A stretch of DNA of 64,000 nucleotides from Komagataeibacter xylinus NBRC 15237 (lineage in GTDB: Bacteria; Pseudomonadota; Alphaproteobacteria; Acetobacterales; Acetobacteraceae): contig NZ_BCTP01000009.1 in NCBI RefSeq assembly GCF_001571345.1, positions 1-64,000 of the forward strand. Direction: 5' to 3'. A model generated the notes under the pieces. It saw nothing but the letters and a program-made list of their open reading frames with translations. It was not told the DNA's origin and did not search any database. Shown one piece after another: positions 3,583 to 56,440 of this stretch. The stretch's first letter is position 1. Every line of letters starts with the position of its first letter. A program made the translations under genes and the position numbers.

Positions 3583-4340
3583 GCGTGAACATGCCCCGTA
3601 CCGCCATGGTTTTTGCCGCAGGGCTGGGCCGCCGCATGCGGCCTTTGAGCGAATCGGTGCCCAAGCCGCTGCTGCGCGTGGCGGGCCAGCCGATTCTGGA
3701 CCACGTGCTCGACCGGCTCGAGGCGGCGGGCGTGGCGCAGGTCGTGGTCAATGCCCACTGGCAGCCCGATGCCATCCATGCGGCCCTTGCCGCGCGCGCC
3801 GCCAGCCATCGTGGCCCCCGCACCGTGGAGCAGGTCGAGGATGCATTGCTTGAAACCGGCGGCAGTGCCGCGAGTGCCTTGCGCGCGGGCCGGATCGGGC
3901 CGGACCCGTTCTTCCTGCTCAATGGCGATGCCATGTGGCTCAACGGCCCGGTGCCCGCCCTGCGGCGGCTGGCGGCAGCGTTCGATCCCGCCTCCATGGA
4001 CGCCATGCTGCTGCTTGGCGGCATGACGCGGGCGGTAGGCGAGGTGGGTCATGGCGATTTTGCTGTTGATGCCCATGGCACGCCGCGCCGCCCGCGCGCG
4101 GGTGAGATCACGCCTTACATTTTTACCGGCGTGCAGATCGTCTCGCCCCGGCTGTTTGATGCAGCACCCGAGGGCGGCTTCAGCATGAACCGCCTGTGGG
4201 ACCGGGCCATGGAGGCAGGCCGCCTGGGCGTGATCGTGCATGATTCGCTGTGGTTCCACCTTTCGCGCCCGGCCGATATCACGGCCGCCGAGCACGTGCT
4301 GCATTCCACCCTCAACCCGGATTCGGATACCGGGCTATGA
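3579..4340 (+). CDS. murU: Nucleotidyltransferase, MurU-like (NDP-sugar pyrophosphorylase)
   Basis: A 253-residue sugar-nucleotide transferase. The N-terminal activation motif AAGLGRRMRPLSESVPKP begins near residue 13, and LLNGDAMW marks the metal-binding region. In Pseudomonas, MurU makes UDP-MurNAc from MurNAc-1-phosphate in peptidoglycan recycling, after AmgK phosphorylates the sugar. The position between tsaE and addB is the usual alphaproteobacterial site for the amgK-murU pair, so MurU is the best call. A mannose-1-phosphate guanylyltransferase cannot be excluded. The start overlaps the tsaE stop by 4 nt and the stop overlaps addB by 4 nt. Confidence 0.75.
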   Translation: MSVNMPRTAMVFAAGLGRRMRPLSESVPKPLLRVAGQPILDHVLDRLEAAGVAQVVVNAHWQPDAIHAALAARAASHRGPRTVEQVEDALLETGGSAASALRAGRIGPDPFFLLNGDAMWLNGPVPALRRLAAAFDPASMDAMLLLGGMTRAVGEVGHGDFAVDAHGTPRRPRAGEITPYIFTGVQIVSPRLFDAAPEGGFSMNRLWDRAMEAGRLGVIVHDSLWFHLSRPADITAAEHVLHSTLNPDSDTGL

Positions 4341-7300
4341 GCCAGCCCGCAGCGCCCTGCGTGCGCGGCCGCGCCGCCGTCATTGCGCCGCATGTGCCGT
4401 TTGTGGACCAGATCGCCGCGCGCTGGCTGGCGCAGGCAGGGCATGATGCGCAGGCGTGTGGCAACGGGCTGATCCTGCTGCCCAGCCGCCGCGCCGCCCG
4501 CGCCCTGACCGAGGCCTTCGTGCGGCAGGTCGATGGCCGCCCCATCCTGCTGCCGCGTATCGCCCCCATTGCGGGGCTTGATGAGGCGGCCCTTGCGCTG
4601 TCGGGCCGCAACGCGCTCGACCTGCCACCGGCGGTCGATCCCGTGCGCCGCCTTGCCACGCTCACGCTGCTGGTCATGCAGGCGGGCCGCGCCTTTGGCG
4701 ATGTGCAGGGCGTGGATCAGGCCTGGCCACTGGCCCGCGCGCTGGTTGACCTGATGGATGAGGCGGAATGGGCCGAATGCGACCTGCATGACCGCCTGCC
4801 CCATGCCGCCGAGGGTGATTTTGCCCAGCACTGGCACCTGACCGTGCAGTTCCTGTCCATCATCACCCAGGTCTGGCCCGCCTGGCTGGCCGAGCAGGGG
4901 GTCATGAACCCCGTCGCCCGCCAGACCGCCCTGCTGCACGCGCAGGCGCAGCGCTGGCTGGAGGCGCCGCCGCCTGCGGGCTACCCCATCTGGGCGGCGG
5001 GTTTTTCCGATGCGGTGCCATCCACCATCGCCATGCTGCGCGCCGTGCTTTCGCTGCCCGATGGGCTGCTGGTGCTGCCGGGCGTGGACATGGACTGCGC
5101 CGATACCGTCTGGTGCACCCTGCCGCCAGACCACCCGCAGGCTGGCACCGCGCATATGCTGGGCGAACTCGGCCTTGAGCGGGACTGCATGGAACAGTGG
5201 GGCGACCTGCCACGCGGCTGCGTGGCCAGCAGCCCCATCCCCCGCGCCAGCCTGCTGGCCCGCGCCCTGCTGCCCGCCCATGCGCTGGCGGGCTGGCGCG
5301 ACCCCGAGGCCCCGGTCATGGCCGATGGCCTGTCGGTATTGCGCAGCACCGACCAGCAGGAGGAAGCCGCCGCCATTGCGATGGTGCTGCGCCAGGTGCT
5401 CGAGCAGCCCGGCAGGCGCGCCGCCCTCGTCACCCCCGACCGCGCGCTGGCCGGGCGCGTTGCCACCGAACTGGTGCGCTGGGGCGTCATCGCCGATGAC
5501 AGCGCGGGCGAAAGCCTGCTCACCATACCGCAGACCGCTTTCCTGCGGCTGATCATACAGGCGGTGGATGGCGGGCTTTCGCCGGTGGCGCTGCTTTCGG
5601 TCATCAAGCACCCGCTGGCGGCGTGTGGCCTTGCGCCGGGCAACTGCCGCGCCAGCGCCCGCCAGCTCGAGCGGCTGCTGCTGCGTGGCCCCGCCCCGCC
5701 ACCGGGCATTGCCGGGCTGCGCGGCGCGCTGGCGCGGGCGGCAGAAGACCCGCATGGCGCATTGGCCGATGCGCCCGACGCACCGGAGGAAATCACCGCC
5801 TTCATCAACCGGCTTGAAACGGCCCTCGGCCCGCTGCTGGCCCTGCCACGCGCCAGTCTGGTGCCGGTTTCCACCCTGCTTGCCGCCCTGATCGAAACCG
5901 CGCAGGCCCTTGCCGCGACCGACACCACCGATGGCGCCGAGCGCCTGTGGGCAGGCGAGGAAGGCAACGCGCTGGGCCAGCACATGAGCGCCATGCTGGC
6001 ATGGTGCGACGTGTTGCCCGAGGCCCGGCTGGGTGCGCTGGACGGGCTGCTGGCCTCCTCGCTTGCGGGCATGACGGTGCAGGGGCGGCGCGCGGTGCGC
6101 GGGCGCGAGGGCACGGCGGTGCATCCGCGCGTGTTTATCTGGGGCCTGCTCGAGGCGCGATTGCAGACTGCCGATACCATCGTGCTCGGCGGCCTTGTGG
6201 AAACCGTCTGGCCCCCCGCCACCGATCCGGGGCCGTGGATGAGCCGCCCCATGCGCACCCGCGTGGGCCTGCCCTCGCCGGAATGGGCCATAGGCCAGGC
6301 CGCGCATGACTTTGTTGCATGCGCCTGCGCCGCGCCAAGGGTGGTGCTGTCCATGGCGGCACGGCGGCAGGGCGCGCCCACCGTGCCCGCGCGGTGGCTG
6401 GTCAGGCTCAATGCCTATCTGGCAGGCCACGGCCATGTCCTGCCGCAGCACCCCGCCCTGCGCTGGCTGGACAGCCTCGACCGGCCGCCCGGCGGGCTGG
6501 TGCAGCCAGCCACCCCGCCGCGTCCCTGCCCGGCAGTTTCCCTGCGTCCGCGCAGCCTGTCGGTGACCGAGATCGAGACATGGATGCGCGACCCCTACGC
6601 CATCTATGCCCGCCGCATCCTGCGCCTCAACCGCCTGGCCGACCTTGAGGAACTGGCCGATGCGGCGGATTACGGCCAGATCGTGCACGCCGCGCTTGAC
6701 CGCTGGTTCCGCGCCCACCCCACCGGCTGGCCTGCTGATGGCGAAGCACAGATGCAGGCCGTCTTTGCCGATGTGCTGCGCGCGGCCGAACTGCGCCCCG
6801 CCCTTGCCGCCTGGTGGGCGCCAAGGCTGGAACGCATCGCCATCTGGTGCGCTGCGACCGAACAGGCGCGCTGCACGGCGGGTGGCCCGCGCACGGTGCT
6901 GACCGAGCTGGGCGGGCGGATGCAGCTTGAAGACCTGCCCGGCGGTCCTTTCACCCTGCGCGGCCGGGCCGACCGGATCGACCGCCACGATGATGGCACG
7001 CTGAGCCTGTTCGATTACAAGACCGGCACCCTGCCCACGCGCCGCAGCGTGCTGGAGGGCTGGCAGTCGCAACTGGTGCTTGAGGCCGCGATGATTGAAA
7101 GCGGTGGCTTTCCGCCCCCCGTGGCGGGCACGGTGGCCGAACTGGTGTACTGGCGCCTGACCGGTGGCCATGTGCCGGCCCTCGTGCTCGACGTGGCGCG
7201 CGGGGCGGAACTGACTGACCTGATCGCCTCATGCCGCGCGGGGCTGCGTGATCTGGTGGCCGGGTATGACAATCCCGACCAGCCCTACCTGTCGCACCCC

Positions 7301-11386: not shown

Positions 11387-11394
11387 TCATCAGT

Positions 11395-11479
11395 AAAAAA
11401 AGTTTTGGGTGCCGCCTTTTTTTCAAAAAGGCGGCATTCTTCTGAAGTTTTTTGAGAAAAGCTTCACCAAAAACTTTTA
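11395..11479. repeat. Dispersed three-stem repeat, copy 1
   Basis: Located between convergent trxA and hpnK. The order is outer arm, then a GCCGCC/GGCGGC stem with T/A runs, then a GAAG/CTTC stem, then the outer arm CCAAAAACTTTTA. One arm of the second stem carries a change that still pairs as a G-U wobble. The AT runs flanking each stem make it a plausible two-way terminator. Confidence 0.85.
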
Positions 11480-11489
11480 TTCTGTCTGT

Positions 11490-20906: not shown

Positions 20907-20967
20907 CGCAGCCTGCCTGAACATGAAGGCGTTTTTGGTTGCCGCATGTTTCCCGGGCTGACTTTTC

Positions 20968-21012
20968 AAACAGTCTTTAAAGACGGCATCTGGAAACTTT
21001 TATTCCAGAGCA
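20968..21012. repeat. Degenerate fragment of the long repeat
   Basis: This stretch contains CTTTTCAAACAGTCTTTAAAG and then GGAAACTTTTATT, which match the terminal repeat and outer arm of the longer dispersed element at 47.4 and 48.6 kb. The inner stems are missing. It lies between the convergent CNNM and lytic transglycosylase genes. Confidence 0.5.
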
Positions 21013-26932: not shown

Positions 26933-26952
26933 ACGGGAAGGGCGTTTTATAG

Positions 26953-27037
26953 ATAAAAGTTTTTGGGTGCCGCCTTTTTGCAAAAAGGCGGCGTTCTTTC
27001 GAAGCTTTTTGAAAAAAGCTTCACCAAAAACTTTTAT
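26953..27037. repeat. Dispersed three-stem repeat, copy 2 (archetype)
   Basis: Located between convergent ispE and the SDR gene. The outer arms ATAAAAGTTTTTGG and CCAAAAACTTTTAT pair perfectly over 14 bp. Inside are a perfect palindrome built from GCCGCCTTTTTG and its complement, and a second near-perfect palindrome starting GAAGCTTTTT. Together they can form a three-way junction on DNA or RNA. Confidence 0.9.
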
Positions 27038-27044
27038 CAGTTTT

Positions 27045-28031
27045 TCAGCTTTTTTTACGGCGCAGGGCCAGCAGCACGATGCCCATCAGCCCCGTTACGG
27101 TGGCAAGCTGGGCATGGCGGCTGGTTAGCAGGAACGGCATGGCCTTGCGCGTGACCATGTCAAACCGGCCATGGGCGGCATAGGCGCCGGGCACGGTTTC
27201 ATACAGGTCATCAGGCTCATTGCCGGCTACCGGGGTTTTTTCCAGTTGCTTCGCGTAGCCCTTGCCCGACAGCCAGCGGTCTGACAGACCGGGCAGGAAG
27301 GTGGACAGCGCCCAGTTGCGTACGCCCGACAGGCCCACCCAGATATCACGCTCGCGCCCGAAGGCGGCGCGGCAGATGGCCTCGGCGGCGATTTCAGGCT
27401 CATAGACCGGCCCCATCGGCTTGAGGCGCTTGCCGGTGTGGTTGCGTGTCCATGAAAAGCGCGGCGTGTTGATGGCGGGCAGGTGCACCAGCGCAATGTG
27501 GATGCGGTCGCCATCATGCAGGATTTCAGGGCGGATGCTCTCGGAGAAGGCCCGCACGGCGGCGCGCGCCCCGTTTTCCACCGCCTGCAGCGGCGGCGGC
27601 CGCAGGCTGGCCAGCCGGTCCAGGTTGACGATGGTGCCATGCCCGCGACGGCGCATGCGCGTCAGCGCCGCGCGCGTGCCGTTGACGGTGCCAAGATAGG
27701 TCACCTCGGTCGCGCGGCGGATCTCATCGGCTTCAAGGGCCGCGACCTGCCCGGTTACGGTCGCACCCGCGCAGTTGATCCATAACGTGATGGGGCCGAG
27801 CTTTTCTTCTATTTCCTCAGCCGCCTGTTCCACTGCCGCCGCATCCGCCACGTCGGCGCAGACGATATGGGTGCGCACCTTGAGTTCGCGCAGTTCGGCG
27901 GCGGCATCATTGAGCCGGTCGCGGTTGCGGCCAAGCAGGGCGACATCGCACCCGGCCCGGGCCAGTGTGCGGGCCGTGGCGCGGCCGATTCCCGCGCCCG
28001 CTCCGGTAATGACGGCAACCTGCTGCGGCAT
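27045..28031 (-). CDS. SDR-family protein lacking the catalytic triad
   Basis: A 328-residue short-chain dehydrogenase/reductase homologue with an intact cofactor motif (TGAGAGIGRATA) and NCAGA (residues 86-90). Homologues of this length carry Ser, Tyr and Lys in a segment shaped like S-A-L-A-Y-R...S-A-Y-C-x-x-K. Here the same segment reads NLDRLASLRPPPLQAVENGAR, with Arg139, Glu152 and Arg156 at the three catalytic positions. The downstream NTPRFSW motif is kept. A C-terminal hydrophobic helix ends in RRKKS and may anchor it to the membrane. It is probably a non-catalytic NAD(P)-binding protein. The start at 28031 has GGAG 8 nt upstream. Confidence 0.8.
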   Translation of the reverse strand: MPQQVAVITGAGAGIGRATARTLARAGCDVALLGRNRDRLNDAAAELRELKVRTHIVCADVADAAAVEQAAEEIEEKLGPITLWINCAGATVTGQVAALEADEIRRATEVTYLGTVNGTRAALTRMRRRGHGTIVNLDRLASLRPPPLQAVENGARAAVRAFSESIRPEILHDGDRIHIALVHLPAINTPRFSWTRNHTGKRLKPMGPVYEPEIAAEAICRAAFGRERDIWVGLSGVRNWALSTFLPGLSDRWLSGKGYAKQLEKTPVAGNEPDDLYETVPGAYAAHGRFDMVTRKAMPFLLTSRHAQLATVTGLMGIVLLALRRKKS

Positions 28032-33284: not shown

Positions 33285-33369
33285 GTAAAAGTTTCTGGGT
33301 GCCGCCTTTTTGCAAAAAGGCGGCGTTCCTCCGAAGCTTTCTGAAAAAAGCTTCACCAGAAACTTTTAC
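33285..33369. repeat. Dispersed three-stem repeat, copy 3
   Basis: Located between convergent rhodanese and DUF2272 genes. The outer arms read GTAAAAGTTTCTGG and CCAGAAACTTTTAC: the C in one arm is matched by a G in the other, a compensatory change from copy 2. The first inner palindrome is unchanged. Confidence 0.9.
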
Positions 33370-46376: not shown

Positions 46377-46808
46377 ATGACCGGACAGACCGGCCCGCGC
46401 GTGGGCTGTGGCGCTGCCATTATTGATGGGGATGGGCGAATTCTGCTGCTCAAACGCCTGCGCCAGCCGCAGGCCGGGTGCTGGGGTTTGCCCGGCGGCA
46501 AGGTGGACGCAAACGAGACGACCTGCCAGGCAATGGCCCGCGAAATTGAGGAGGAAGTGGGGTTGCGCGTAGAAGCCCCGGAATTTTTATGCCTGGTGGA
46601 GGAACGCGACACCACGGCAGGGCATTTCTGGGTTTCCCCGGTTTATCTGGTTACGTCCTGGCAGGGCGAGCCACGGCTGATGGAGCCGGACAAGCATGAG
46701 GGGCCGCGCTGGTTCGCGTGCGATGCCCTGCCGGAAAACCTGACAACCCCCACCCGTTACGCGGTGGAGGAACTGGCGCTTCGGGCAACCCTGAATTGTA
46801 AAAAATGA
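46377..46808 (+). CDS. Nudix hydrolase
   Basis: A 143-residue Nudix protein. The box is GGKVDANETTCQAMAREIEEEVGL, matching G-x5-E-x7-REUxEExGU; it begins near residue 40. Family members hydrolyse nucleoside diphosphates linked to another group, such as oxidised dNTPs or ADP-ribose. The substrate cannot be set from sequence, though the size and ALLLL-type opening resemble small MutT/ADP-ribose pyrophosphatase proteins. The ribosome site AGAAGGAAGG precedes the ATG. The gene is separated from pdc by a possible terminator. Confidence 0.88.
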   Translation: MTGQTGPRVGCGAAIIDGDGRILLLKRLRQPQAGCWGLPGGKVDANETTCQAMAREIEEEVGLRVEAPEFLCLVEERDTTAGHFWVSPVYLVTSWQGEPRLMEPDKHEGPRWFACDALPENLTTPTRYAVEELALRATLNCKK

Positions 46809-46866
46809 CAAAGTTTGATTTTTGTCGTGGTTGCCGGGCGCGATTGGGTCTCAGATAGGCGAAGGA

Positions 46867-47052
46867 TCAGGACGGGTCGGCTGCCGTGTCGAGCGTGCGG
46901 GCATAATCGAGCAGGGCACGGCGGTGGCGGGCATGGATCATCCGCGTGGTCAGGGACCGGGTCGGGATTTCATCCGTGATTAACGGAAGGGCACCGGCTG
47001 CGATGGATGAAGCTGCGGCAGACGGGGCGATCGTATCAACTGCAGGGGTCAT
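46867..47052 (-). CDS. Short hypothetical protein
   Basis: A 61-residue frame with no recognised domain. The first half is Ala/Ser/Pro-rich (DTIAPSAAASSIAAGALP) and the second half is basic (TRSLTTRMIHARHRRALLDYARTLD), possibly a short helix. GGAAA lies about 9 nt before the ATG at 47052. Codon use fits the local GC content. The low-complexity content makes it uncertain that this is expressed. Confidence 0.4.
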   Translation of the reverse strand: MTPAVDTIAPSAAASSIAAGALPLITDEIPTRSLTTRMIHARHRRALLDYARTLDTAADPS

Positions 47053-47076
47053 TGCTGTTTTTCCGTTATGTGCCAA

Positions 47077-47353
47077 GGACAGGACAAGCTCCGGTGAGTC
47101 GGGTTGTTAACCGAGCGACACATTACCTAATGTTCATACATGTCGGAATTGAGGCATAAAAGACATACTGGCGCGGAAAGCTCACTTTTTCGTTCACATT
47201 TAATTTATCATATGAAACTCAGGAATAGGACCATGTTCCTCCTGAACCTTTCCGGAAAGTAATCTGGGCGCTTTATCGGTCCACAGGAATTAAAAAATTA
47301 TCTAAATTTTGTCGCCCGGCCGAAAAAAACCGGGCGGCTCGCCTTGGCCCACG
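47077..47353. other. AT-rich intergenic region
   Basis: About 280 bp with much lower GC than its neighbours, upstream of the 61-residue frame. It may hold its promoter. A 7-bp inverted repeat CGCCCGG/CCGGGCG occurs near 47311-47334. No convincing gene is seen. Confidence 0.5.
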
Positions 47354-47518
47354 GAGACTGTTTGAAAAATCAGCCCGGCAAACATCAAGGCATCATAAGG
47401 AAGTTTCTGGTGCAGCTTTTTTCAGAAAGCTTTGAAAAGACGTCGCCTTTTTGAAAAAAAAGGCGGCACCTAAAAACTTTTATCATTTTTTATCAAAGAG
47501 TTGTTTTCAAACAGCGTC
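47354..47518. repeat. Long dispersed repeat with terminal inverted repeats, copy A (contains three-stem copy 4)
   Basis: About 165 bp. The left end GAGACTGTTTGAAAA mirrors the right end TTTTCAAACAGCGTCTC. The core is the three-stem element in reversed order (AGCTT stem first, then the CGCC/GGCG stem). It shares an extra stretch (CATCAAGG, ATCATAAGGAAG) with the copy at 48551. The right end touches the phosphotransferase stop codon. Confidence 0.85.
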
Positions 47519-48502
47519 TCAGCCGAGATGGCGCAGGAGGCGCCCGTTCTTCCATGCCTCGCACAGGGCGAATGTGCGTCCGGTCCAGTCCCGGCCGAGG
47601 CTGCGCACCTGTTCGGTCCGGGCATGGGTGCCGGTCCACGCCAAAAGCTGGATGCGGCGCTGGATAACGAGGGCTGGCAGAATATCAAGGTCAGCCTGCG
47701 TCAGGTCGCCCATGGTGCCATAACCACTCAGCCAGTGGTCAACCCAGCGCGGAGCCTGCGGATGGTCTTCGTAAAAACTCAGCGCTGCCGCCAGGTCCTG
47801 CATGAACCAGCTTATGCCGCAGTCATCAAAATCGATCAGGCGGGTGTGCGTGCCGCTGATCAGCAGGTTGGCCAGCCGCAGATCGGCATGGATCAGCCCG
47901 AATCGCGCAGGCCCGGTGCCATAATCCGCCAGTTGCGCTGCAACCGTGCGCAGGCAGCCTGCAATCAGGTCGCGTCCGGCATCGGTCATGCCCGGCGCAT
48001 CGGGCCACCAGCCCCACGGGGCATCGGGGCCGGTCATGGTGGCAGGGGTCCAGACCTTGCGGGTGAAGCCGGGCGGGCGCTGCCACTGTCGGCTATGGGC
48101 ATGCAGGCGGGCCGTTACGCCCCCTAGCCGGGCGAAGGCGGCGGGATCGACATCGGTGGTGGGTTCGGTGCCCTCCATCCAGTCAAACAGCACGGCATGG
48201 CGGGGTATGCCATCAGTGCCGCAGAGGGTGCGGATGCGCCCGCCATCACGACCGGGCCGGGGCCTGGGCACGTCCAGCCCTGTTGCATGCAGGGCATCGA
48301 GCCAGGCCAGTTCGCTGCCAATCTCGGCGGCGGTATGATAGCCGGGCCGGTGCAGGCGCAGCACATGGCGCGGGCCCGATGGGGTATCGATGCGAAAGAC
48401 GACGTTTTCTGAAATGGAAAGCAGGCTGGGCTGGGCATCACGCAGCGGGTACTGGGCCAGCGCTGCGTGGGCCAGCCGGTAAAGGGAGGCGGGATCGGTC
48501 AT
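47519..48502 (-). CDS. Aminoglycoside-phosphotransferase-family kinase
   Basis: A 327-residue protein with the APH/choline-kinase fold. The catalytic loop is FGLIHADLRLANLL, with the Asp and Asn, and the metal motif is RLIDFDDCG. The N-lobe shows VLRLHRPGY. It resembles the SrkA/YihE or homoserine-kinase-like groups rather than a resistance enzyme. The substrate is unknown. GAGGGATC precedes the ATG. The gene is bracketed by two direct copies of the long repeat, and its stop lies at the edge of one of them. It is not adjacent to murU, so it is not an obvious AmgK. Confidence 0.8.
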   Translation of the reverse strand: MTDPASLYRLAHAALAQYPLRDAQPSLLSISENVVFRIDTPSGPRHVLRLHRPGYHTAAEIGSELAWLDALHATGLDVPRPRPGRDGGRIRTLCGTDGIPRHAVLFDWMEGTEPTTDVDPAAFARLGGVTARLHAHSRQWQRPPGFTRKVWTPATMTGPDAPWGWWPDAPGMTDAGRDLIAGCLRTVAAQLADYGTGPARFGLIHADLRLANLLISGTHTRLIDFDDCGISWFMQDLAAALSFYEDHPQAPRWVDHWLSGYGTMGDLTQADLDILPALVIQRRIQLLAWTGTHARTEQVRSLGRDWTGRTFALCEAWKNGRLLRHLG

Positions 48503-48550
48503 GATCCCTCTCCCATACCGCCTGGGCGCGTATTGATGAAGGCTGGGTTG

Positions 48551-48711
48551 GAGACTGTTTGAAAAGTCAGCCCTGAAACATCAAGGAATCATAAGGAAGT
48601 TTTTGGCGAAGCTTTTTTCGAAAAGCTTCGAAGAAGGCCGCCTTCTTGAAAAAAGGCGGCACCCAAAAACTTTTCTCATTTTTTATCAATGAGTTGTTTT
48701 CAAACAGTGTT
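48551..48711. repeat. Long dispersed repeat with terminal inverted repeats, copy B (contains three-stem copy 5)
   Basis: Same organisation and orientation as copy A. It starts GAGACTGTTTGAAAAGTC and ends TTTTCAAACAGTGTTTTAG. The core at about 48597-48674 has perfect inner stems (GAAGCTTTTTTCG with its complement; GCCGCCTTCTTG with a partner). It ends right after the oprB stop codon. Confidence 0.85.
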
Positions 48712-50193
48712 TTAGAGAATGCAGTTGAACTGCAGGCCCATCACCGCCGCATCATGATAGGTGGTGGTGCCGCCGGGGCGGTTGATATACTGGAAATCCG
48801 GCTGGAAGCTCATGCCGCGCGCTGTATGGATGTTGTAGAAAACTTCATACACGTCTTCATGCGTCTGGATGCCCCAGACCTTGCCCCACTGGTTGTTCAG
48901 GAAGGGCGTGCCCGCCAGCACCGAGGATTCCTGCTGCAGCACCGAGGCGCGGCTCATCTCGAAATAATGGAACATGGCGCCCACCGTATCGAGCGGGCGG
49001 CCCCAGGCGGCGCCGGTTTCCACCATGCCTGCCCAGGCGTGGTATTTCATCGCCGAGACCTTGCCTGACGTATACATGAAGCCTGAAAGCGCGATCAGGC
49101 CGTTGGTCGGGCCTTTGCCGTTGCGGATGAACATCTGGTCGGCCTGGAACCACGCGGTGCTGACACCGGACTGCTTGCGGAAAGGCTGGCCCGTCAGCAC
49201 GGCGGAGTTGCCGTTAATGTCGGAATACAGGTCGTTGTACTGCGAGTTGTCATAGCCGTAACCCGCCTTGTAGTGACCGGCGAGGTGGCTTTTACCGAAT
49301 TCGGGCAACCAGCCGAATTCCACCGGGGTGGAGAACTTGCCCAGCCCGCTCTGCGCCCAGGCCCAGCCCGAGATGCCGCCATTGAAGGAATGCGGGGATA
49401 CGGCGAACATCGAGGCCATGATGTAGGTATCGACCGTAGGCATGACGCGCATCACCACGCCAAGGTTGCCCGATGGCCAGTCGCGCCCGCCCGGCACGTA
49501 TTTGCCCGGCGCGGGATTGCCGCAGATCGACACGTTCATGAAGTCACAGAACAGGGGGGAGGCGGCAAAGAAGCTGCCCACCGGAATCCAGCCCGCGCTG
49601 ATGTCGAGCCGGTTATGGAACAGCGACTGTTCGGCATACATGTACACAAGGTGGGCGACCACGTTACCACGCGCGCCGTAGATCTGCTGCACGCCACCAA
49701 GCGAATCGTGGATGTTGTCCGTGCTTTCGTTCCGGCCATGACCGTTCACGATCATGGTATGGGTCCAGAAATTCTTGGGTGCGCCTGCCAGCTTGTGCCA
49801 GTCGATATCGATTTCCACGCCGACCTGGCCCGCATCGGTCACGCCTTTTTGCGCGCCGCCGTGGAAGTTGCCCGCGAGTTCCTCATGCACGTCGGCCTCG
49901 ATATGCACGCCGTGCTTCTGCAGATAGGGCTGAAGCCCTGCCCAGTCGCCAAAAAAGTGCTGGTTGCCGTAGGGCGCACTGTAAAACTGCCCCGGATCCT
50001 GCACTGTAACATTACGGCGTGAATTGATGTTGAGGCTCGGCTGTGCGCCAACCACGCCCTGGCCTTCCCCCGGAATGGCCTGTGCCCAGGCACCGCCTTC
50101 GCCACAGGTGAAAAAAGCAAGAAGAAACAGGGGGAGCAGCGCAAAAGAGCGGATAAATCTTCGGGTCATTCGCATATCGGTAGCATATTTCAT
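48712..50193 (-). CDS. oprB: Carbohydrate-selective porin, OprB family
   Basis: A 493-residue outer-membrane porin. A signal peptide precedes AWAQAIPGEG. The mature part has the OprB pattern: FFGDWAGLQPYLQKHGVHIEADVHEELAGNFHGG, a family-typical N-terminal periplasmic plug, then aromatic-rich beta strands such as WAGMVETGAAWGRPL, and a C-terminal QFNCIL strand. OprB proteins let sugars diffuse through the outer membrane. Three in-frame ATGs near the start are possible. The 260-bp AT-rich region upstream contains a 17-bp palindrome. Confidence 0.88.
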   Translation of the reverse strand: MKYATDMRMTRRFIRSFALLPLFLLAFFTCGEGGAWAQAIPGEGQGVVGAQPSLNINSRRNVTVQDPGQFYSAPYGNQHFFGDWAGLQPYLQKHGVHIEADVHEELAGNFHGGAQKGVTDAGQVGVEIDIDWHKLAGAPKNFWTHTMIVNGHGRNESTDNIHDSLGGVQQIYGARGNVVAHLVYMYAEQSLFHNRLDISAGWIPVGSFFAASPLFCDFMNVSICGNPAPGKYVPGGRDWPSGNLGVVMRVMPTVDTYIMASMFAVSPHSFNGGISGWAWAQSGLGKFSTPVEFGWLPEFGKSHLAGHYKAGYGYDNSQYNDLYSDINGNSAVLTGQPFRKQSGVSTAWFQADQMFIRNGKGPTNGLIALSGFMYTSGKVSAMKYHAWAGMVETGAAWGRPLDTVGAMFHYFEMSRASVLQQESSVLAGTPFLNNQWGKVWGIQTHEDVYEVFYNIHTARGMSFQPDFQYINRPGGTTTYHDAAVMGLQFNCIL

Positions 50194-51693: not shown

Positions 51694-51778
51694 ATAAAGG
51701 TTTTGGGCAAAGCTTTTTGAAAAAAGCTTTGAAAAGACGCTGCCTTTTTTCAAAAAGGCAGCACCTAAAAACTTTTAT
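51694..51778. repeat. Dispersed three-stem repeat, copy 6
   Basis: Between convergent PfpI and folE, in reversed order. The stem that reads GCCGCC in other copies is here GCTGCC/GGCAGC, changed on both sides so that pairing is kept. The other stem is CAAAGCTTTTT with its complement. Outer arms ATAAAGG... and ...ACTTTTAT remain. Confidence 0.88.
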
Positions 51779-55029: not shown

Positions 55030-55495
55030 TTGATAAATGGTAAAATAGGGGATGTTTTCTACATCGATACAAAGAATGGCAGGTATTACCTTCAATATAT
55101 CAGGAAAATACCGAAATTTTCATACATGATCAGGGTGTTTTCCGGCTTTTGCCCTGATGAAGGCGCGCCAGATGTGACGGAAATCGTGAAATTGCCTGTT
55201 GCCCTCATCATATTTTTTTCCATTGGGCGCGGCGGACCGGCGCAGGATCGTCCATAAATGTGGCCATGTGCCGCTTGATGAAAAAGGCAGGGAAATGCCG
55301 GTGTTTCGTTATGGAATACCGGACTTCAGCACCAGAAATGTGCCGTTATGGTGTTTCTGGGATGGAGAAAAAGAGTGGCCTGTTGAAAATATTACTAATG
55401 AACAGAGAAAATTACCGATGAAAATAATCGTTAATGGTATAGCGCTGATCGATAAAATAGAAAATGGATGGCCCCCTGAAAACGATCCATGGTGA
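55030..55495 (+). pseudogene. Imm26-like immunity gene with a frameshift at a T7 tract
   Basis: Two overlapping frames look like one gene. Frame one (from 55030) begins INGKIGDVFYIDTKNGRYYLQYI, like the Imm26 opening. The second frame (from 55199) continues CGHVPLDEKGREMPVFRYGIPDF and ends NGWPPENDPW. They meet at a run of seven T's (55213-55219). Removing one T gives a 154-residue open frame, close to the usual Imm26 length. Imm26 proteins protect against polymorphic toxins. No toxin gene is nearby. The GC content is clearly lower than the window average. It could be a true pseudogene, a phase-variable gene or a sequence error. Confidence 0.65.
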
Positions 55496-55517
55496 ACACG
55501 ACTATAATTTAAAATAA

Positions 55518-55600
55518 CAAAAGTTTTTTGGTGCTGTCTTTTTTTCAAAAAGGCGGCGTCTTTCAAAGCTTTTTTGAAAAAAGCTTTACCAAAAACTTTG
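55518..55600. repeat. Dispersed three-stem repeat, copy 7
   Basis: Between the Imm26-like pseudogene and the convergent exported-protein gene. Forward orientation. The first stem (GCTGTC with GGCGGC) pairs less well here. The second stem, CAAAGCTTTTTTG, remains strong, and the outer arms CAAAAGTTTTTTGG and CCAAAAACTTTGG pair with one mismatch. Confidence 0.85.
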
Positions 55601-56096: not shown

Positions 56097-56192
56097 GAAG
56101 GGCATACTCCCGCAAGGACAGAACCATTGCGAACCCAATGCGTGGCACCCTTCAAGGTTCCGTGCCGTCTTCCTGCCCGTGGCAAAAGCCGC

Positions 56193-56250
56193 GTTTTCAA
56201 ACGGTCAGTGTTTCCTGAAGCCTCTTGAAAAAAAGCTTCACCAAAAACTT
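56193..56250. repeat. Partial dispersed repeat, copy 8
   Basis: Half of the element: GTTTTCAAACGGTCAGTG, then GAAGCCTCTTGAAAAAAAGCTTCAC fragments and CCAAAAACTTCTT. The first inner stem and left outer arm are missing. It directly precedes the decayed Imm26-like fragment. Confidence 0.6.
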
Positions 56251-56261
56251 CTTGATATTAC

Positions 56262-56343
56262 CAGAGAAAATTATCGCTAAAGGTCATCGTCAATACTACG
56301 GCCCTGATCGCCAGACTGGACGCCTGAAAACGATCCATGGTGA
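56262..56343 (+). pseudogene. Decayed 3' fragment of a second Imm26-like gene
   Basis: Read in one frame this encodes QRKLSLKVIVNTTALIARLDA, which aligns to QRKLPMKIIVNGIALIDKIEN at the end of the gene at 55.4 kb. A frame change then gives PENDPW and a stop, exactly as in that gene. About 80 bp remain. The pair of copies is separated by an exported-protein gene and repeat elements, so this looks like a duplication followed by decay. Confidence 0.75.
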
Positions 56344-56358
56344 ACCGGATTAAAACAG

Positions 56359-56440
56359 GTAAAAGTTTTTGGGTGTCGCCTTTTTTTAAAAAGGCGACGT
56401 TCGTGAAAGCCTGTTTGCAGCAGGCTTCACCCCAAACAGA
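56359..56440. repeat. Dispersed three-stem repeat, copy 9
   Basis: Between the Imm26 fragment and convergent pqiC. The first stem is GTCGCC/GGCGAC and the second GAAGCCTG/CAGGCTTC, both changed from the archetype on the two sides so pairing is kept. This copy gives the strongest covariation. The right outer arm is shortened (CCCAAAC). Confidence 0.88.

Follow-up and report, generated by a model that had tools for sequence, protein, structure and literature searches.

The two same-oriented repeats that flank a phosphotransferase (APH) gene in the window, by which we mean the whole 64,000-nucleotide stretch of DNA analysed here, very probably go back to two independent insertions of a single non-autonomous, MITE-like element of Komagataeibacter, with the APH gene bracketed by accident. 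The features observed are short size, paired terminal inverted repeats (TIRs) of about 15 bp, dispersed copies, empty sites, and a 3-bp TNA target-site duplication. This reading explains why dispersed repeats of one family in acetic acid bacteria start exactly at stop codons without any need for stop-codon recognition, and it carries the caution that two repeats around a gene need not mean a cassette.

Structure of the paired elements

The left element (e1, 47354-47518, plus strand, 165 bp) and the right element (e2, 48551-48711, plus strand, 161 bp) lie 1.2 kb apart in the same orientation, and their BLAST alignment gave 87.2% identity over 164 columns, which bears out the matching ends and shared orientation described in the first-pass annotation. 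Both were recovered by BLAST and by the family profile, which e1 matches at positions 2-163 of 164. Each element has GAGACTGTTTGAAAA as its left end, and its right end is made up of TTTTCAAACAG and four more bases; the two ends form an inverted repeat. The left TIRs, on the plus strand (47354-47368 in e1 and 48551-48565 in e2), score 15/15 to GAGACTGTTTGAAAA, and the right TIRs, on the minus strand (47504-47518 and 48697-48711), score 13/15 to the consensus. Within the window, GAGACTGTTTGAAAA is found at 47354 and 48551 and nowhere else, and TTTTCAAACAG at 47504 and 48697, plus 20963. The last of these belongs to a solo left end of the element (20932-20977), which sits 25 bp past a predicted gene stop. 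At 165 and 161 bp, e1 and e2 leave no room for a transposase gene.

Precise abutment on two stop codons, also reported in that annotation, proved exact. The right end of e1 meets TCA at 47519-47521, the TGA stop of the minus-strand APH ORF, and the right end of e2 meets TTA at 48712-48714, the TAA stop of the minus-strand oprB ORF. The APH gene (47519-48502, minus strand; Pfam PF01636, 1.7e-30) and the porin gene oprB (48712-50193, minus strand; PF04966, 1.5e-98) are both resident genes. Since every NCBIfam match of the APH protein falls under its cut-off, we claim no function for it beyond the APH fold family.

Empty sites and age of the bracketed gene

Among the 19 loci of APH relatives, we used the 11 from Komagataeibacter and left out eight from other genera; the closest named relatives of the APH gene in the window are from Komagataeibacter species. 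The gene order pdc-nudix-APH-oprB-mocF is conserved in 11/11 of these loci, and APH adjoins oprB in 19/19 genomes of the genus, own genome included, though the two sets probably overlap. The e2 site is empty in every other genome compared, and the oprB-APH gap in the 11 loci is 45 bp and element-free. At the oprB end, K. xylinus CGMCC 21569 (L064) reads CTCTAA-CCCGG, against CTCTAA-161 bp-CAA-CCCAG in the window. From this empty junction, the oprB stop codon is the e2 target, and the far copy, TTG at 48548-48550 (CAA on the gene strand, for TAA), has one base changed. At the level of sequence comparison, it is thus shown that e2 entered the TAA stop and duplicated it, and the end of the oprB protein was left unchanged.

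Outside its own genome, e1 is found only in L064 and in L181, with identical match coordinates. Here, empty-site alignment places the target at the APH stop TGA (47519-47521) and the far copy at ACG, 47351-47353 (CGT on the gene strand, 2/3 bases changed); L064 has GGA at this place (1/3 differs). As these far copies no longer match TGA, the duplication is deduced from the alignment, and e1 likely entered the APH stop, its far copy having since decayed. Given that e2 is absent elsewhere and e1 is present in one near relative only, the two elements arrived separately.

In the own genome, a third site (C4:27227) coincides with the stop codon of a LysR gene and reads TTA[152 bp]TTA; its joined flanks are matched by 14 of the 18 other genus genomes. 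The junction in these 14 is a single TTA or TCA, with two needing a small alignment shift; among the remaining genomes, G018 has the two sides separated by about 60 bp, another matches on a single side, and two lack a match. Insertion against empty site is hence documented at three sites (e1, e2, and C4:27227). A candidate for an additional empty site is L011, where two genomes (G007 and G018) match over the joined flanks and a different repeat in the flank dominates the search. Moreover, the copy on plasmid NZ_CP118676.1 abuts the stop of an annotated aldo/keto reductase CDS and has TTA on both sides.

A dispersed family and its target site

To place e1 and e2 within their family, we searched the own genome (3.62 Mb in 156 contigs) with e2. 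Out of 334 first-look candidates, we scored 40, which gave 45 match rows, five being short pieces. With at most one mismatch, GACTGTTTGAAAA occurs at 92 places in the own genome, versus 3 for the reversed control. A profile built on 19 copies gave 53 distinct near-full-length copies among the loci examined (41 in the own genome); these come from the loci of the better matches (30 loci; ten of the 45 e2 match rows; part of the 92 TIR places), so that the sample is biased to well-kept copies and is not a census. Both ends score at least 11/15 in 35 own and 8 other copies; the counts do not include the ten poor-ended copies (6 own, 4 other). The 35 own copies span 122-165 bp, with 22 at 159-165 bp, 9 at 150-153 bp, and 4 shorter. 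Among the short copies of the alignment, 7/8 carry the same deletion, of about 11 bp, which suggests that the short copies multiplied after the deletion arose. In a survey of 150 sampled genomes of the bacterial family, matches were found in 7 genomes and 3 of 102 genera, and the plasmid records with a match number six (five Komagataeibacter and one Novacetimonas).

TNA lies just outside at least one end in 32/35 own copies (8.9% expected) and in 8/8 other copies, and the surrounding bases lean to YTNAR. Target-site duplications at other full-length copies, which the first-pass annotation had suggested looking for, are present: the 3-bp flanks are identical in 15/35 own copies, 14 of these being TNA, and in 4/8 of the others. 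When flanks were re-paired at random, the mean was 5.7 identical pairs, and 15 was reached in 0 of 20,000 shuffles; the next 3-mers outward are identical in 2/35 own copies. With a looser criterion (2/3 bases alike), there was no excess among the 35 own copies (26 versus 23.0 in shuffles), and the flanks are non-identical in 20/35. The family hence has a 3-bp TNA target-site duplication.

Placement at stop codons and gene 3' ends

Eleven own copies touch the stop of an ORF. One (L030) was dropped, its ORF having no Pfam match and an unlikely composition, which leaves 10/35 at the stop of a supported gene, by the right end in eight and the left end in two; nine of these genes have a Pfam match and the tenth (L148) was called from its codon score. 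A gene 3' end is the neighbour of 34/35 full-length own copies. In fact, only 1 of the 30 copies with both neighbours called lies between divergent genes, whereas such gaps make up 27% of the intergenic length of the window (P 8e-4), and between tandem genes the right end is toward the 3' end of the upstream gene in 14/18 (P 0.03). Gene ends in the copy, core, and null counts come from a codon-score caller, whose first cut-off missed the Nudix gene and whose training took 4115-7171 on the strand opposite to the later call.

That the placement at stop codons needs a reason, as the first-pass annotation had argued, is upheld, and the reason need not involve the stop codons themselves. It is possible to suppose that the element recognises them, or the ends of translation or transcription, as such. 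In favour of this, 10/35 copies at stops exceeds the 7.9% of intergenic TNA sites in the window that are stops (P 2.6e-4), also after repeats were masked (9.4%, P 1.1e-3), the null in each case being one 64-kb window and the codon-score caller. Yet, when compared with YTNAR sites, of which 18.75% are stops, the excess falls away (P 0.11), and stop codons make up 32% of those TNA sites that lie no more than 100 bp from a 3' end, versus the 29% of copies observed, which is therefore as expected. We thus regard stop recognition as very unlikely. A TNA target and confinement to 3' ends suffice to explain the abutment: TAA, TGA, and their reverse complements are all TNA sites, and an element with this target that survives almost only beside gene 3' ends is expected to have about one third of its copies exactly at stops. 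The confinement itself could come either from selection, with insertions away from gene 3' ends presumably purged, or from targeting.

The inner core and the IHF-like motif

The exact IHF consensus WATCAANNNNTTR, used for our motif scan as worded in a passage of PMC3281130, occurs in 22/35 copies, always at the same position, 28 bp inward of the right end, as against 0.3% in shuffled ends. In the window, its only two exact matches are those of e1 (47491-47503) and e2 (48684-48696), both on the plus strand. The motif may aid transposition or folding. Further inward lies a core that in e1 (47401-47479, plus strand) folds as an outer stem enclosing two hairpins and in e2 (48597-48672, plus strand) has perfect inverted ends. 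The gene-sense strand folds better than shuffles, with z -7.4 for the whole of e2 and -3.9 for e1. Covariation is weak, with a double change in 4/32 pairs and a covariation term of +0.26 in an alignment of 29 copies, namely the 31 of at least 145 bp minus L144 (badly aligned) and L026. Rfam gave three matches over 47000-49000, each far under its gathering score, which speaks against a known RNA, and terminator-like sites (hairpin plus T run) in the region 46800-48760 number 3 versus 2.3 in shuffles, with no excess that would point to a canonical terminator.

The core with perfect inverted ends is found at 32 places, including some within full-length elements, versus 0 for the control. Eight of the 15 core loci examined are core-only; in seven of these, a 3' end is predicted at most 13 bp away, and in the eighth (L213) the distance is 84 bp. 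In the window, we noticed six strong core-only matches (11393-11480, 26952-27050, 33285-33366, 51697-51778, 55477-55599, and 56325-56438), each overlapping a predicted gene 3' end or at most 18 bp from one. The core also exists as an independent dispersed repeat, without the mobile ends. The copies at 55477-55599 and 56325-56438 share an extra end, TTCACCATGGATCGTTTTCAGG, that is missing from the MITE family, and are perhaps another composite repeat. Additionally, a partial core match (56188-56262, E 9.4e-9) sits beside an GACCGTTTGAAAA end, away from gene 3' ends.

Alternative explanations for the bracketed gene

Apart from stop recognition, we weighed two other accounts of the pair, as well as a broader one of the element itself. 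As the copies are direct, 87% alike, and 1.2 kb apart, they could in principle recombine with one another, and they could make up a composite cassette that brought the APH gene in or that recombines to delete it, as the first-pass annotation had proposed. The comparison with other species does not sustain such gain or loss: the gene is ancestral, adjoining oprB in all 11 Komagataeibacter loci and all 19 genus genomes, e1 and e2 differ in distribution, and each has its own target site, all of which makes the cassette extremely unlikely. A composite transposon was rejected on the same footing, as the APH gene and its neighbour are present without the copies and the outermost flanks of the pair, ACG and TTA, are not duplicated. 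According to the annotation, its proposal would be undone if sister strains all kept the gene and both copies, or if copies elsewhere bore no relation to gene ends; relatives do keep the gene, but most are without both copies, and copies elsewhere do relate to gene ends.

A less far-fetched account holds that the core is a functional, REP-like or terminator-like 3'-end element under selection, with the mobile ends secondary. The perfect inverted ends at so many places, the nearness of seven of the eight core-only loci and of the six strong window matches to 3' ends, and the folding of both e1 and e2 are consistent with it. On the other hand, TIRs, TNA duplications, and empty sites are seen for full-length copies, the number of terminator-like sites does not stand out against shuffles, covariation is weak, and both L213 and the match at 56188-56262 are away from 3' ends, and we consider this account unlikely. 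Also doubtful, but conceivable, is that the element is built to land harmlessly, with a TNA target that copies the stop, a core that ends or caps transcripts, an IHF site that mostly faces the gene, and insertion perhaps coupled to transcription ends; if true, it would be a portable 3' end that rewires gene tails across the genus. Under our preferred reading of two independent MITE-like insertions, the core might likewise end or protect transcripts. With filled and empty sites to compare, the order of insertion can be tested, and so can any influence of the core on where transcripts end.

Relation to known elements and candidate transposase source

By the features tested, the element belongs among the MITEs, and MITEs in 3' untranslated regions are already known. 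QMITE2 of Coxiella burnetii, as described in parts of PMC5896051 and PMC10969869, is a 150-190-bp MITE lying mostly in 3' untranslated and intergenic regions; by that description, it is set apart from the Komagataeibacter element by its other host and by direct repeats of 7-11 nt with variable sequence. The main text of a 2026 paper on the Komagataeibacter mobilome (PMC13028821) does not contain the words 'MITE', 'miniature', or 'IS1031', and no description of the element came up in the open-licence literature searched. Likened by description, the Correia elements of Neisseria are MITEs of similar size with an IHF site, though they have a TA target and another host.

Among autonomous elements, the IS1031-like IS5-family insertion sequences (ISs) of Komagataeibacter resemble our element in starting with GAG.CTG and in having TNA flanks, but differ in being about 880-930 bp with a transposase gene. 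IS1031 itself follows the TNA target rule. In the portion of PMC2516522 consulted, the IS1031 group is said to recognise three nucleotides at insertion. Three ISs come close: L043 (884 bp) scores 13/15 at both ends, has flanks TTA and TGA, and encodes a transposase matching NF033580 (IS5 family, 236 bits against a cut-off of 110); L086 (883 bp) scores 14/15 at one end and has flanks TAA and TTA; and L087 (897 bp) scores 12/15 and has TAA on both sides. A scan of 52 transposase loci (some being the same place) turned up no IS with exactly the ends of the element, and the IHF motif is absent from the four IS ends checked, which is why we only infer a helper transposase. Five of at least six GCCTGTTTGAAAA places in the own genome were examined, with no convincing paired end. 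The likely, if unproven, source of the transposase is the IS5-family ISs whose ends nearly match those of the element, and a transposase of this IS1031-like kind would move the element in trans. In contig C46 of the own genome (L050, about 1322-1415), two same-oriented ends (TTTCCAAACAGGCTC) of the 884-bp IS5-family IS lie 79 bp apart, and are perhaps a deleted or nested copy of the IS. Furthermore, one genome (G012) holds dozens of IS5-family transposase matches that are nearly identical to one another and share 49% identity with the L043 protein, and this is a recent IS expansion.
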